This document shows, piece after piece, positions 1,407-27,377 of a DNA stretch of 30,775 bases. Where the stretch lies: IMG/VR virus record IMGVR_UViG_3300035667_000008, positions 1 through 30,775 of that record. One strand, written 5' to 3'. Position 1 is the first letter of the stretch. Each line of letters starts with the position of its first letter. The position numbers and the translations under genes are program-made. Source of the stretch: a virus. Under the pieces are notes generated by a model that saw only the letters and a list, made by a program, of their open reading frames with translations, did not search any database and was not told the DNA's origin.

Positions 1407-2225
1407 ATGGCCGCACCGTGTGACTGGGTGGTGGACCCCGTAGAGCTCGGGGTGTGCTCGACCTGGGCCGATTACACCGACGCGCAGCAGGCAACCGCGC
1501 TGGCGCTGGCAACCGGCTTCCTCTGGGCGGCCACCGGTCGCCGGTTCGGGGTCTGCCCGCTGACCGTACGACCCTCGCAGGCTCATCGGGGGGAGCAGGC
1601 CTACCAGACGTATGAGGTCGTTCCGGGATCCCAGGCGGGCCTCGGCGTGGCTGGCGGGCCGTTCTTGTTCGACGGCCGCTGGTTCAATCAGGGATGCGCC
1701 TCGGCGTGCTGCGGCCAGCGCGCGTGCGCCATCGTGCTGCGCGGCCCGGTGGTCAGCGTGGACGATGTGACCGTGGGCACCGAGACGGTCCCCCCGAGTG
1801 CGTACCGGGTCGATGTGACCAACGGGACCTACCTGCTGGTCCGGCTCGACGGCGAGTGCTGGCCGACGTGTCAGAACTTCACGGCCGCGCCGGGCGAGGA
1901 GGGCTCGTTCGAGGTCACCTACGAGATCGGGCGCGAGCTTCCACTCATGCTCCAGGTGGCTACCGCGCTGCTGGCGTGCGAGTACGGCAAGAGCCTCACC
2001 GGCGGTGTGTGCGCGCTACCCGCCAAGATGACCCGGCTCACCCGCCAGGGTGTCGAGCTGGAGGTGGCCAGCGCCGACCCGGATGATGGCAAGACCGGGA
2101 TCAAGATCGTGGACGATGTGATCAGCTCGCTCAACCCGACCGGCCGCAAGAGTCCTCCGTTGCTCCTCTCCCCGGATCTGCCCGAGAACTGCGACCGCGT
2201 GACGGTCTGGGTAGGAGGTTCCTGA
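1407..2225 (+). CDS. head-to-tail adaptor-like protein
   Basis: This encodes 272 residues. The ATG is chosen because ACAGGAGG lies 6-13 nt upstream. The N-terminal part (CSTWADYTDAQQATALALATGFLWAATGRRFG) is a helical segment typical of phage head-tail connector or adaptor proteins, which dock beneath the portal. The middle is cysteine-rich (CASACCGQRAC) and beta-rich, and the C-terminus contains a second helical stretch (LMLQVATALLACEYG). Position after capsid-region genes and before neck genes supports a connector role. The start of the next gene overlaps its stop (TGATGG), so they are translationally coupled. The adaptor assignment rests on pattern and synteny; I see no enzymatic motif. Confidence 0.6.
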   Translation: MAAPCDWVVDPVELGVCSTWADYTDAQQATALALATGFLWAATGRRFGVCPLTVRPSQAHRGEQAYQTYEVVPGSQAGLGVAGGPFLFDGRWFNQGCASACCGQRACAIVLRGPVVSVDDVTVGTETVPPSAYRVDVTNGTYLLVRLDGECWPTCQNFTAAPGEEGSFEVTYEIGRELPLMLQVATALLACEYGKSLTGGVCALPAKMTRLTRQGVELEVASADPDDGKTGIKIVDDVISSLNPTGRKSPPLLLSPDLPENCDRVTVWVGGS

Positions 2226-2773
2226 TGGCTGTTTCCGACCCGCTCGTGATGCCGTTCGCCCGGGAGCTGTTGGATTGCCTGGCTCAGGAAATGAGCAAGG
2301 TCGAAAACCCGCCCAAGTACGTCCAGCTCCGGCCGGGCGACGTCGTTGACCACTTACTGTCAACTTTCCAGGACGAGTGCTGTGAGGGTCTGGCCTGGGT
2401 GCGCCCGGCTGGATTCTTTCCCAGCTCGACTGTGTTCCCGAACCAGGACGAGACGCCGTTGCCGAAGGGTGTTTCATCCTGGGCTGTCACGCTGGAGCTC
2501 GGCTCGGTGCGGTGCGCGCCGACGCCGGACGCTGACGCCATCCCGACCGGCGAGGAGTGGGATGTCACCACCCAGGCCGTGATGGACGACGCTGCCGCTC
2601 TGCGGCGTGCGATCTGCTGCTTCATCGACGGCAGGCCCGGCCGGAACCAGAAGGTGCTCATCGGTGAGTGGCAGCCGCTGAGCGTGCAGGGCGGCTGTGT
2701 CGGCGGCATCATGCCGGTGATCATCCGGGGTCCGATCTGCGATTGCGCCGAGGCGGGACCTGTTTCATCCTGA
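2225..2773 (+). CDS. neck/connector-region structural protein
   Basis: This encodes 182 residues, with its ATG overlapping the previous stop and GTAGGAGG just upstream. The protein has a helical N-terminus and then mixed alpha/beta sequence with several cysteines (ECCEG, ICCF, ICDC); no membrane segment or known motif is visible. Its place between an adaptor-like and an HK97 gp10-like neck gene suggests a head-tail joining protein. An operator-like palindrome lies within it at 2346-2363. A strong hairpin terminator follows the stop, which ends this operon ahead of the minus-strand non-coding segment. Function is inferred from position only. Confidence 0.55.
   Translation: MAVSDPLVMPFARELLDCLAQEMSKVENPPKYVQLRPGDVVDHLLSTFQDECCEGLAWVRPAGFFPSSTVFPNQDETPLPKGVSSWAVTLELGSVRCAPTPDADAIPTGEEWDVTTQAVMDDAAALRRAICCFIDGRPGRNQKVLIGEWQPLSVQGGCVGGIMPVIIRGPICDCAEAGPVSS
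2346..2363. promoter_or_regulatory. operator-like palindrome, intragenic (10/10)
   Basis: TTGAC-CACTTACT-GTCAA. Both half-sites are perfect. No -10 box lies at the expected distance. It lies in frame as V-D-H-L-L-S-T and uses a TCA serine codon, which is uncommon in this GC-rich sequence. Confidence 0.55.
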
Positions 2774-2781
2774 CGCAAGAA

Positions 2782-2806
2782 GTCCCGGGGGTCTGAGCCC
2801 CGGGAC
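2782..2806 (+). terminator. perfect hairpin terminator
   Basis: A 9-bp perfect stem (2782-2790 with 2798-2806) with a 7-nt loop lies right after the connector operon. Being symmetrical, it may also end the minus-strand transcript arriving from about 3322. Confidence 0.7.
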
Positions 2807-2882
2807 CTCTGCTGTGCTGCCTCTGACCTTACAGGCGTGTCGTTCAAGATCGCCATAGGTCAGACCGTTGGAATGTAACCCT

Positions 2883-2946
2883 TCTGATCGGCCACGTGGA
2901 CGGAGTCGAACCGCCGACATCCTCCTGAGCTTCCCGGTTGATCAGA
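2883..2946 (-). tRNA. tRNA-like unit (T-arm at 2915-2899)
   Basis: The T-arm GGCGG-TTCGACT-CCGTC pairs fully (one G-U). A 7-bp outer stem can form between 2946-2940 and 2889-2883, but nine extra bases lie between it and the T-arm. The hairpin at 2950-2934, with GAT in its loop, competes with the outer stem. No standard cloverleaf results, so this is a low-confidence tRNA or remnant. Confidence 0.25.
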
Positions 2947-3117
2947 CCGGGCTGTACTGAACTCGACACAGCAGTTCAGGCCAGTAAAAGGCCCTCTGTC
3001 CTCTGAGGTACACGCGGCACCCGTGATCCCCTCACCCCATGCCCTGAGCTCGGTTCACACTGGCGGGCGAGGCATCGCCCTTGCCCAGACCCAGGATTAG
3101 CGTCCTGGTCCGAACCG

Positions 3118-3180
3118 CGATGAGGAGAGGATTCGAACCTCTCTGCGCGGGTCGCGTCGCCCTTTTCGCCACCATGGTCA
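3118..3180 (-). tRNA. tRNA-like unit (T-arm at 3143-3125)
   Basis: A perfect T-arm (GAGAGG-TTCGAAT-CCTCTC) is preceded by sequence that looks like the D-arm of a leucine or serine tRNA (GGCGAAAAGGGCGACGC at about 3171-3155). The anticodon arm that should lie between them is absent, and I find no 5' acceptor strand for CCTCATC. It looks like a tRNA gene with an internal deletion. Confidence 0.3.
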
Positions 3181-3205
3181 AGGGGAATCGAACCCCACCC
3201 GGACC

Positions 3206-3297
3206 AACCGGACGCCCGAATCGAACGGGCCTAACGCACCAATCTCATCTGCCAAGGCAGCTCGACCCGCCATCTGAGGAGCACATCCCCGCCCGGT
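3206..3297 (-). tRNA. tRNA-like unit (T-arm at 3230-3214)
   Basis: A perfect T-arm (GCCCG-TTCGATT-CGGGC) is directly followed by GTCCGGT (3213-3207). That can pair with ACCGGGC at 3297-3291 over 7 bp, giving about 92 nt, the length of a class II tRNA. A GCTC/GAGC D-stem is possible, but its loop and the spacer before it are too long. I cannot place a normal anticodon arm. Real or decayed tRNA is undecided. Confidence 0.35.
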
Positions 3298-3328
3298 CGC
3301 TTCCTGCCTCGCTGCCTTACGAATGGCA

Positions 3329-3357
3329 ACATTACCGCCATGCCGGGGAGGTGTCAA
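3329..3357 (-). promoter_or_regulatory. early-type promoter for cluster A RNA
   Basis: On the minus strand, -35 TTGACA (3357-3352) and -10 TAATGT (3334-3329) are separated by exactly 17 bp. This is the same architecture as the early promoters at 21799 and 23219. The operator half-site is only partly kept (TTGAC-N8-GGCAT). It points into the non-coding segment, not into any gene. Confidence 0.7.
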
Positions 3358-3373: not shown

Positions 3374-3805
3374 ATGGCTGAATACGTGCTGAACCTCAAG
3401 GTGGACAAGCTCCAGGGCGTCGGCCAGCGCCGCGCCAAGAGCCTGGTCACCCGGTTCACCCGGCGCACCTTCAACTACTCCCAGACCCGCGTACCCGTGG
3501 ACACCGGCTACTTGCGCGCTTCCGGATCGACGTCGATCGAGACTGGCACCACCAGCGTGGTCGGGACGATCATCTACACGGCGGAATATGCAGCGGCCGT
3601 GCACAATGGCCGCCGTGCGCTGACCATCCGGCCGCACAATCCAAGCGGCTACCTCTGGTTCACGGTGGGCGGCAAGCGGGTCCGAGCCAAGGAAGTGCAC
3701 CAGCCAGCCCGCAAGGGCCGTCCGTACCTGGCCAACGCGCTCCAGAAAGCAGCTGGCTCATCCAGGGACTTCCAGGTGCGTATCGGGGCCGGAGCGCCGA
3801 TCTGA
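3374..3805 (+). CDS. HK97 gp10-like neck/tail completion protein
   Basis: This encodes 143 residues. The motif VPVDTGYLRASGSTSI near residues 38-53, followed by a beta-rich YTAEYAAAVHNG and a C-terminal RPYLANAL, is the classic pattern of HK97 gp10-type proteins, which join head and tail in siphophages. The N-terminus is basic and helical. The ATG at 3374 is chosen for the TAGTCT-N6-ATG leaderless arrangement; no good ribosome binding site is present. It is the first gene after the non-coding cluster and is followed by another leaderless-type start at 3847. Confidence 0.75.
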   Translation: MAEYVLNLKVDKLQGVGQRRAKSLVTRFTRRTFNYSQTRVPVDTGYLRASGSTSIETGTTSVVGTIIYTAEYAAAVHNGRRALTIRPHNPSGYLWFTVGGKRVRAKEVHQPARKGRPYLANALQKAAGSSRDFQVRIGAGAPI

Positions 3806-3834
3806 CGGTCGTGAGATGTCCGGTCGCTCTGGGG

Positions 3835-3840
3835 TAGGGT
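3835..3840 (+). promoter_or_regulatory. TAGGGT -10 box for leaderless start
   Basis: TAGGGT is followed by 6 nt and then the ATG at 3847, the same spacing as at 3362, 6053 and 16959. No ribosome binding site is visible before this ATG. Confidence 0.5.
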
Positions 3841-3846
3841 GGCCCC

Positions 3847-4260
3847 ATGACCGAACCGACGGAAGACACCCAGGTCCCGGAGCGGGAGATCACCTTCCAC
3901 GACCGGCAGATCTGGGTCAAGCCGCCCAAGCCAGAACAGCTCTTGGTCTGGCAGCGCACCCTCAAGCGGCTTCAGCAGCCAGGCCTGACCTGGACCGGAG
4001 AGAGCGTGATGGCCGCGCTCGAACGGCTCCGGCTGATCATCGACTCAGTGATCCTGAACCAGGTCGACAAGGACTGGCTGGACGATCAGATGCTGGCCGG
4101 GAACCTGGAGATGAAGGACACCTCCGAAATCGTCCACCTCACGATCGACGCGTTCGGCCAGCCGACCAACCGCGCCGAACGCCGGACTACCGCCAAGAAG
4201 GCAGCCCCGGCCAAGAAGGCAGTTCGTAAGACTGCTCCGTCCAGAAAGATGATCCCGTGA
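3847..4260 (+). CDS. tail assembly chaperone-like protein
   Basis: This encodes 137 residues. The N-terminal half is mixed alpha/beta (EITFHDRQIWVKPPKPEQLLVWQRTLKRL), followed by helical sequence and a lysine/alanine-rich C-terminus (TAKKAAPAKKAVRKTAPS). Small acidic-to-basic proteins of this kind sit between the neck genes and the tape measure gene and act as tail assembly chaperones that bind it. In many siphophages two such products arise by -1 frameshifting. Here the next gene (4257) is in the -1 frame, but only 27 nt of that frame are open upstream and I see no strong slippery heptamer. The role comes from position and general character. Confidence 0.6.
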   Translation: MTEPTEDTQVPEREITFHDRQIWVKPPKPEQLLVWQRTLKRLQQPGLTWTGESVMAALERLRLIIDSVILNQVDKDWLDDQMLAGNLEMKDTSEIVHLTIDAFGQPTNRAERRTTAKKAAPAKKAVRKTAPSRKMIP

Positions 4261-4634
4261 TGATGGCTCCCGAAGGCGCCCGCGACATCGACCCGGCCAT
4301 GGTGCTCGGTACCCGCGAGCACGCGGCGGCCATCACTGAGAGCCGCTACCCGGGCGTGATCGACGCACTCCAGTGGCTGTGTTTCTCGCACCTCCCCAAG
4401 ACGTTGTGGCGCTTCTCGGCGCCGTTCTACGGGGCGGCCATGGACCTGCTCCAGGAGATCCGGACCGATTCGCCTGAGCTGATCAGCGCGCTGAACGGAC
4501 TTATCGCGGCCAAGGATCACGCGATGCGCGCCGGGATCAAGCACGACACCGGCCGCGCCGGTCCGGTCGCGCGCCCGCAGACCGTGGTCAATCCGCCGTT
4601 GTTCGAAGACAAGCGATCGAGCGGTGGCGCATGA
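4257..4634 (+). CDS. small helical protein, possible Acb2/Tad1-like hairpin or chaperone partner
   Basis: This encodes 125 residues from a GTG (ATG at 4260 is possible) that overlaps the previous stop. The central part, SHLPKTLWRFSAPFYGAAMDLL and then TDSPELISALNGLIAAKDHAMRAG, is a two-helix pattern: an HLP motif followed by a P-x-x-A-L-x-x-L-x-x-A-K-D helix. It is widespread in actinophages and reminds me of the hairpin domain in Acb2/Tad1-type proteins, which sequester cyclic-nucleotide signals of bacterial immune systems. That link is from memory and not established. The -1 frame relation to the preceding gene leaves open that it is the frameshift extension of the tail chaperone. There is no signal peptide or membrane segment. 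Confidence 0.6.
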   Translation: MMMAPEGARDIDPAMVLGTREHAAAITESRYPGVIDALQWLCFSHLPKTLWRFSAPFYGAAMDLLQEIRTDSPELISALNGLIAAKDHAMRAGIKHDTGRAGPVARPQTVVNPPLFEDKRSSGGA

Positions 4635-26644: not shown

Positions 26645-26651
26645 GTGTCAA
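26634..26651. promoter_or_regulatory. operator-like palindrome at exonuclease stop (9/10)
   Basis: CTGAC-AGTTAAGT-GTCAA overlaps the last codons and stop of the exonuclease gene and ends 2 bp upstream of the promoter at 26654. Confidence 0.6.
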
Positions 26652-26653
26652 CG

Positions 26654-26682
26654 TTGCGACATTAACGGCGGCACTGTAATGT
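26654..26682 (+). promoter_or_regulatory. early-type promoter for cluster B RNA
   Basis: TTGCGA (26654-26659), 17 bp, TAATGT (26677-26682). No gene starts for 690 nt downstream, so it drives the non-coding tRNA-like cluster, mirroring the promoter at 3357-3329 for cluster A. Confidence 0.65.
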
Positions 26683-26750
26683 ATGACTTGCTGGTCGACG
26701 GACCCCCTAGGCCAGCAGCCCGGAGCTTTTCGCGGGGCTTCGGATTCTGT

Positions 26751-26819
26751 GCCCGTGCTCGCTATTAGGACCCGACCGTCCAGCTTGCTGGCCTCTGGTT
26801 CGAACCCCGGAACGGGTTG
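26751..26819 (+). tRNA. tRNA-like unit (T-arm at 26794-26810)
   Basis: A T-arm with a TTCGAAC loop is followed by AACGGGT, which can pair with GCCCGTG at 26751 over six positions (one G-U). The region between contains a CCAG-CTTG-CTGG hairpin but no normal 7-nt anticodon loop. At 69 nt it is short for a tRNA. Confidence 0.25.
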
Positions 26820-26892
26820 AAGGGGTAGGGACCCTCCGACAGATCCCAGGGGGCCAGGTTCGCGGCCTGGCCCCCGGTACTAACTTGATAGA

Positions 26893-26992
26893 GCCCAGGC
26901 AGTCAGAGGATCGAGCGTCACGCCCGGCGCGCTGTCACGGCAAAGCTGACCCGCTGAGGGGAGGCGAGGCGGTTCGAATCCGCCGATGGGCA
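26893..26992 (+). tRNA. tRNA-like unit (T-arm at 26968-26984)
   Basis: The perfect T-arm GGCGG-TTCGAAT-CCGCC is followed by GATGGGC-A. GCCCA at 26893 pairs with TGGGC over 5 bp, and a D-arm-like AGTCAGAGGATCGAGCG follows, lacking one C relative to a normal tRNA D-stem. About 28 extra bases lie between D-arm and T-arm. This is the best tRNA-like unit of the cluster, but not canonical. Confidence 0.35.
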
Positions 26993-27132
26993 CGAGCGGT
27001 CTGAGGTTCGCCCACGACCGGTCAAAAGCCCGGCACGCAGAAGCACCACGCCGGGTAACAACTCATGGCGGACGCCCCATGTGGACGGGGTTAAGAAGTC
27101 CGACGGGCTGAGTGTCGGCCTGCACGAGTCGG

Positions 27133-27211
27133 ACGGATGGCCGAATGGTGAGGTCTCATCAGAGACCAAGGCCAGCGACCGGGTTCAAGATCCCCGGGAC
27201 GGTGCATCCGT
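27133..27211 (+). tRNA. tRNA-like unit with 7-bp acceptor-type stem
   Basis: ACGGATG (27133-27139) pairs perfectly with CATCCGT (27205-27211), 79 nt in all. Inside are a D-loop-like GAATGGTGA, a 5-bp arm with 6-nt loop CATCAG, and a hairpin with TTCAAGATC loop. Seven extra bases separate the last hairpin from the acceptor strand. Length and outer stem fit a tRNA; the loops do not. Confidence 0.3.
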
Positions 27212-27377
27212 TTGGCGAGGCACTGGTTGAGGTCCGGACCGAAGCGGGACCAGGGGCGGTGGCCCACCAGAATCCACCGGGTCCGGCCGGGCGAGGGAGC
27301 CAGGTCAGTGTTGCCGTCAGACCTCGGCCGGGCCGCACCAAAACAGCTAGCTAGCTACTCACAGAAAGGTGGCCCTA

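Follow-up and report, generated by a model that had tools for sequence, protein, structure and literature searches.

In engineered tRNA scaffolds for RNA expression, a foreign RNA domain replaces the anticodon loop of a tRNA body. In tmRNA (RF00023 and relatives), a tRNA-like end is joined to other RNA domains that stand in place of the anticodon region, while tRNA-Sec and allo-tRNAs (RF01852) have an unusual split of the 12-bp acceptor/T stack, with the anticodon loop retained in the allo-tRNAs. Some phage tRNAs have anticodon loops unlike those of the host and have been proposed to keep decoding (van den Berg et al. 2023, PMC10264068), and GOLLD and ROOL, structured phage RNAs of unknown function located beside tRNA islands, form RNA-only multimers (PMC12286853). 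The conservation of non-decoding tRNA genes by some phages is not accounted for by codon-compensation and replacement-tRNA models.

The RNAs described here, E1 and E2, come from a 30.8-kb record, a fragment of an actinobacterial tailed phage (the window, 30,775 nt). Judged by comparison of sequences, E2 is almost certainly a tRNA body with a junction domain and E1 an RNA in which a tRNA-like end is combined with a conserved core. E2 resembles canonical tRNA (RF00005) in its 7-bp acceptor, 4-bp D arm, 5-bp anticodon stem, 5-nt variable loop, T arm and conserved elbow nucleotides, but has a three-way-junction domain of 50-77 nt instead of an anticodon loop, whereas E1 is without recognisable D and anticodon arms. 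E2 differs from tmRNA in its complete D arm and in lacking a reading frame for a tag, and searches for tmRNA with ARAGORN and Rfam returned at best a 9.7-bit fragment covering the T arm only. E1 shares with tRNA-Sec and the allo-tRNAs the unusual 12-bp split, which is 6/6 in most members, yet it has no anticodon loop as the allo-tRNAs do, and a relaxed Rfam search of the segment gave two weak tRNA-Sec matches, which at 20.4 and 20.3 bits fall short of the threshold of 47. The acceptor stem implied by the tRNA-Sec match, GGTCGAG (3267-3261) with CTTGACC, was dropped as it is not kept in locus L034. GOLLD and ROOL are much larger and have other structures, and their covariance models at gathering scores found no match in the window and eight relatives. 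In contrast to engineered scaffolds, which are laboratory constructs, the arrangement of E2 is natural and conserved, and in contrast to the phage tRNAs of van den Berg et al., E1 and E2 appear unable to decode in the usual way. Because each of these families fails on a defining feature, E1 and E2 are filed as new variant-type tRNA-like RNAs outside the decoding tRNA, tmRNA, tRNA-Sec, intron and GOLLD/ROOL families; the open-access literature searched yielded no account of a phage tRNA that carries a structured domain in its anticodon loop.

The pas20/pas21 gap as a cargo site

Of the deposited phages, only Actinoplanes phage phiAsp2 is a near relative, with 74.8% identity over 28%. The RNA segment is flanked by homologues of the phiAsp2 genes pas20 (2225-2773, plus strand) and pas21 (3374-3805, plus strand), and no conserved protein gene was found between the two, which bears out the claim of an earlier note on this DNA that the segment is free of genes. 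The same gene pair occurs in sixty-odd IMG/VR contigs. In many of them the gap measures about 100-120 bp, with an empty state of about 113 bp, while others have a cargo site there, up to several kb long, with small genes or RNA clusters on the minus strand. Since the contents of the relatives' gaps differ widely and an empty state exists, gain and loss must be frequent. Minus-strand cargo of this hotspot includes small proteins in L006, L008, L009 and L014 and secreted-looking peptides in L005, L016, L061 and L071. A nucleotide-similarity search with the RNA cluster itself gave no near match among phage records, and Pfam analysis of 19 among the larger proteins predicted for the window showed no tRNA-related enzyme.

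The earlier note had described the segment as framed by a promoter and a terminator. The predicted promoter, TTGACA-N17-TAATGT at 3357-3329 on the minus strand, is borne out by the relatives: TTGACA-N17-TAANGT occupies the equivalent position at the head of the cargo in 16 of 56 gaps and never on the opposite strand, with 0.005 expected from shuffles. A scan with the E. coli-type promoter consensus and for U-tailed terminators found none, the promoter scan coming up empty because the -10 element follows the actinobacterial pattern TANNNT. As for the terminator, the strong hairpin at the end of the cluster is present, but a U run is absent. The segment is best explained as a putative short minus-strand transcription unit coding for tRNA-bodied non-coding RNAs (Table 1).

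Table 1. Features of the RNA cluster, in window coordinates
Feature	Positions	Strand	Basis
Promoter-like site: TTGACA (3357-3352), 17-nt spacer, TAATGT (3334-3329)	3329-3357	-	sequence; conservation in gaps
E1, RNA with tRNA-like ends	3118-3249	-	model R1; covariation
E1 acceptor 5' strand GATGAG, pairing with 3119-3124 CTCATC	3244-3249	-	6/6 pairs covary
E1 hairpin 1, T-arm-like, GCCCG-TTCGATT-CGGGC	3214-3230	-	R1; covariation
E1 hairpin 2, CCGG-TTGGT-CCGG (small 'anticodon' loop of the earlier note)	3199-3211	-	R1; covariation
E1 hairpin 3, T-arm-like, GGGG-TTCGATT-CCCC	3182-3196	-	
E1 conserved core CTTGACCATGGTGGCGAAAAG	3162-3182	-	pattern matches in other phages; alignment
E1 T arm GAGAGG-TTCGAAT-CCTCTC (3125-3143) and acceptor 3' strand CTCATC (3119-3124)	3119-3143	-	
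Candidate E1-E2 spacer RNA, two-hairpin element closed by CGGTTC/GAACCG	3051-3117	-	weakly supported
E2, tRNA cloverleaf with structured domain replacing the anticodon loop	2889-3018	-	model R2; ARAGORN -i
E2 acceptor 5' strand CCGCGTG, pairing with 2892-2898 CACGTGG	3011-3017	-	5/7 acceptor pairs covary
E2 D arm CCTC-AGAGGACA-GAGG	2993-3008	-	100% of cells paired
E2 anticodon stem 5' strand CCTTTT, pairing with 2921-2926 AGGAGG	2986-2991	-	97% of cells paired
E2 inserted domain, 59 nt	2927-2985	-	one fold in all six members
E2 insert hairpin A	2952-2984	-	base of hairpin covaries
E2 insert hairpin B, loop with palindrome UGAUCA	2933-2951	-	
E2 insert joining strand AAGCUC	2927-2932	-	
E2 T arm GGCGG-TTCGACT-CCGTC	2899-2915	-	100% of cells paired
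Strong hairpin ending the cluster	2782-2806		sequence; seen too in relatives with an empty gap

Structure and recurrence of E2 and E1

Standard software gave no normal tRNA in the segment: ARAGORN and Rfam at normal thresholds had no match there, a check that the earlier note had named, and ARAGORN at a relaxed score matches everywhere and is uninformative. Folding energy gave no signal, the free-energy z-scores of the segment being ordinary, so that comparison and not energy carries the case. The four T-arm motifs that had been reported on the minus strand are all present (loops at about 3219-3225, 3186-3192, 3131-3137 and 2904-2910), as is the D-arm fragment, CCTCAGAGGACAGAGG at 3008-2993. 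The claim that complete tRNAs fail to fold does not hold, as 2890-3017 on the minus strand is a full cloverleaf when the domain in the anticodon loop is set aside, and it is this region, c[2890,3017], that ARAGORN finds in intron mode (-i), with 0 of 400 dinucleotide shuffles of the gap matching.

The motif AACCSGGAAGCTCAGGNGGA, or a looser form of it, led to five homologues of E2, three of them in the equivalent gap (L003, L061 and L068) and two elsewhere, on the phage contigs L100 and L114, which makes six sequences in all. Every homologue is a complete tRNA cloverleaf with an insert of 50-77 nt in the anticodon loop; the insert of the window measures 59 nt, or 47 nt by ARAGORN's own count. 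The elbow nucleotides U8, A14, G15, G18, G19, A21, C48, U54, U55, C56 and A58 are invariant among the members, G-1 (3018) is able to pair with C73 (2891), and the middle pair of the anticodon stem covaries. The alignment, which like that of E1 was fitted and leans towards the modelled structure, has standard pairs in 97.5% of its pair cells and nine pairs with changes on both sides, whereas sliding the strands leaves at most 50%; with the base of hairpin A included, 97.8% of cells are paired and eleven pairs are double-changed. Covariation in E2 and E1 also clearly exceeds that of shuffled controls. The window was left out when the covariance model R2 was built; the model gives the window E2 103.2 bits (E 3.1e-23), compared with about 34-64 bits for ordinary tRNAs, and the L100 copy passes the Rfam tRNA model over 131 nt with 43 bits, the threshold being 29. 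Folded alone, the inserts of all six members give the same three-way junction, consisting of an A, hairpin A, an abutting hairpin B (stem CCSGR/CCSGG) and AAGCUC. One junction fold on differing stems, combined with near-invariant joining strands (the A after the anticodon stem and AAGCUC before it), is the pattern of a functional domain.

In E1, a 6-bp acceptor helix is stacked on a 6-bp T arm, and between these ends lie three or four further hairpins, two of them T-arm-like and one variable, and the core CTTRACCAYGGTGGCGAAWAG. The stack is split 7/5 instead of 6/6 in L109-L111, and the core and third hairpin are replaced in the Streptomyces phages Satis and Kradal. Homologues were located via GCGCAGAGAGGTTCGARTCCTCTC and CYTRACCNYGGWGGCRAAWAG in the same gap of L034 and in other phages (L102, L104, L108 with L105, L109, L110 and L111), and about ten sequences were found. 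The acceptor GATGAG/CTCATC of the window is replaced elsewhere by AGTCCG/CGGACT, GGGCGG/CCGCCC, AGTCAG/CTGACT, GGCGAG/CTCGTC or GGGCTG/CAGCCC, and 14 pairs are changed on both sides, all six acceptor pairs among them. In the fitted alignment, 100% of acceptor cells are paired in nine sequences and 80% in hairpin 2, the weakest helix; hairpins 2 and 4 are highly variable. The covariance model R1, built from five other-phage loci only (L102, L104, L108, L109 and L111), scores both the window (E 3e-33) and L034 at 105.1 bits, compared with 30-36 bits for ordinary host tRNAs. Further pattern matches in L095, L097, L098, L106, L107, L112 and L113 look like chance matches in coding sequence and were rejected.

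BLAST places E1 in the cultured Streptomyces phages Quantum, Kradal, EhyElimayoE and Satis, and R1 confirms it in Satis and Kradal with 83 and 88 bits. In these 186 kb genomes it follows the last tRNA of an annotated array at a distance of about 0.7 kb and carries no RNA annotation; the Kradal copy overlaps a small, 117-bp hypothetical gene, and in Satis, Quantum and EhyElimayoE E1 is unannotated or at most under or beside small hypothetical genes. Both families thus recur in other, unrelated phages, E1 also in laboratory-grown ones, and both lie near ordinary tRNAs in some of them. Among 395 genomes sampled from the same class as a Streptomyces genome, neither E1 nor E2 was found above the tRNA background: R1 gave matches of 30-36 bits in eight of these actinobacterial genomes, all ordinary tRNAs and seven of them tandem Gly-Cys tRNA pairs, and R2 under strict filters at E 1e-14 gave none, which is a weak negative.

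These comparisons bear on the readings offered earlier. A decaying tRNA array is consistent with the lack of any tRNA detected by normal finders and with relatives whose gaps hold many different contents or are empty, but compensatory changes preserve the pairing of the acceptor, D, anticodon, T and insert helices in diverged phages, and the same aberrant forms occur in unrelated phages including the 186 kb ones, which leaves decay hardly credible. Aberrant tRNAs, another of the suggestions, describes E2 well, and a structured RNA that imitates tRNA parts describes E1. A 6-nt loop and a C at position 37 had been listed as well; a C just before A38 is indeed seen, but the two are not independent anomalies, as the TTGGTC loop belongs to one of the hairpins of E1 and the conserved E2 junction strand AAGCTC ends in C37.

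Decoding and possible functions

E2 has the cloverleaf of a decoding tRNA, with acceptor, D arm, anticodon stem and T arm, but no 7-nt loop with U33, which decoding tRNAs usually combine with a purine at 37, is found whether or not the insert is removed, and E1 has neither an anticodon arm nor a decoding loop. A small anticodon-loop intron whose removal would yield a decoding tRNA is suggested by ARAGORN's intron mode, which accepts E2 in the window and in L003, L061, L068, L100 and L114. For every 7-nt loop keeping U32 and A38, however, all six members have A at position 33, and only three of the possible splices put anything other than a pyrimidine at position 37. Because U33 is unavailable for any splice, decoding by E2 is unlikely. 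The insert is also far below the size of a group I or II intron, with no catalytic core or other intron match in Rfam, its joining strands are among the most conserved parts, and E1 has no such option, so that an intron is very improbable. Splicing and decay are both disfavoured, and for E1 and E2 alike, decoding in the usual way appears unlikely. Charging is unlikely to be the point either, because no amino-acid identity is conserved, the discriminator of E2 being C, C, A, A, G and A in the six members.

This leads to a model in which a tRNA platform carries a payload. The tRNA part would provide maturation and stability, as host tRNA-processing enzymes would cut the ends, CCA would be added and the L-shaped fold would resist nucleases, while the domain in place of the anticodon region would be the working part, binding a host or phage partner; neither RNA would be used for decoding. 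We infer this division because of the location of the conserved single-stranded nucleotides and the freely varying acceptor identity. Such a function, considered by itself, has a little less than an even chance of being correct, and structure and function together are about evenly poised. A more tentative reading would place both RNAs in a class of tRNA-scaffolded non-coding RNAs of actinobacterial phages, with bodies for maturation and stability and diverse effector domains in the place of the anticodon arm, which would bind host or phage partners, possibly as dimers, and thereby control the infected host.

A serious alternative, possible though not the favoured one, is a decoy role, in which tRNA-shaped RNAs would occupy host enzymes acting on tRNAs, such as tRNA-cutting or tail-modifying defences and toxins. 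Defences that target tRNAs and phage tRNA counter-measures are documented (PMC10264068, PMC11555353, PMC12851939). E1 and E2 retain acceptor, elbow and T arm and not the decoding loop, E1 is located in tRNA arrays of other phages, and such decoys would be immune to anticodon cleavage because they have no anticodon loop. Most known tRNA nucleases, on the other hand, read that very loop, and a pure decoy would not need the conserved junction domain.

Other functional RNAs might use tRNA parts for assembly, for instance as dimers formed through the palindromic loop of hairpin B, a rather improbable reading. The 6-nt palindrome is UGAUCA in the window, L003 and L100 and UGUACA in L068, whereas 6% of random loops would hold one, and the multimers of GOLLD and ROOL (PMC12286853) offer a precedent. 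L061 and L114, however, have no 6-nt palindrome, common descent may explain why three of the four are identical, and the GOLLD and ROOL models give no match here. Dimerisation through the UGAUCA/UGUACA loops, suggested by these sequences, is a lead only.

Genes of the E1/E2 type are invisible to the usual settings of tRNA finders and will therefore have escaped notice in other genomes. As E1 is present in phages that grow on laboratory Streptomyces, the role of a decoding-dead tRNA can be answered by ordinary genetics and RNA work.

Further tRNA-like RNAs

The spacer between E1 and E2 includes the hairpin CCAGGA-CGCTAA-TCCTGG, and its fold and the motif GACGCTAATC are common to the window and L005 only. 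A second RNA cluster at 26650-27370 on the plus strand of the window, behind TTGCGACATTAACGGCGGCACTGTAATGT, has more aberrant tRNA-like RNAs, among them 26892-26994, which scores 24.7 bits with R2, and 27130-27213, with an anticodon arm that ends in a 4-nt loop; the cluster also has an element with GGCCCACCAGAATCC in common with L060 and L068.

On the minus strand of L005 (4725), L011 (4555), L012 (4572), L017 (4642) and L034 (5142), a tRNA-like family has a 6-nt anticodon-like loop, UUGGUC, which is kept on the unlike stems GCCGG, CCGCCCC and CCCCAGG and possibly represents a Pro(UGG)-like tRNA with a 6-nt loop. A hairpin with the motif GCCTAACCAGC recurs in the same five loci and in L110 and L111, where it precedes tRNA-like RNAs or sits in tRNA arrays of different phages. 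Hairpins with the loop GGNCNACGTCGTCA lie 3' of tRNA-like RNAs (minus strand, about 3700-4490) in L011, L012, L013, L017 and L019, with one to three copies per locus. The 5' half of the gap in L012, L017, L019 and L065 holds a long conserved structured leader, GACAG-YCGG-RAAGA-CGRC...GTGCCGACYTAG, which ends in a T-arm-like hairpin and in L012 has a TTCG-capped hairpin at the position expected for an anticodon arm.

The E2 copy of L114 (31-175) has a bulged C, and two tRNA-like RNAs on the minus strand of the L039 gap have acceptor stems that apparently form only with a bulged G. In L127 (8575-8649, minus strand), a short Arg(ACG)-like tRNA with a D arm identical to that of the window E2 is a possible ancestor type.
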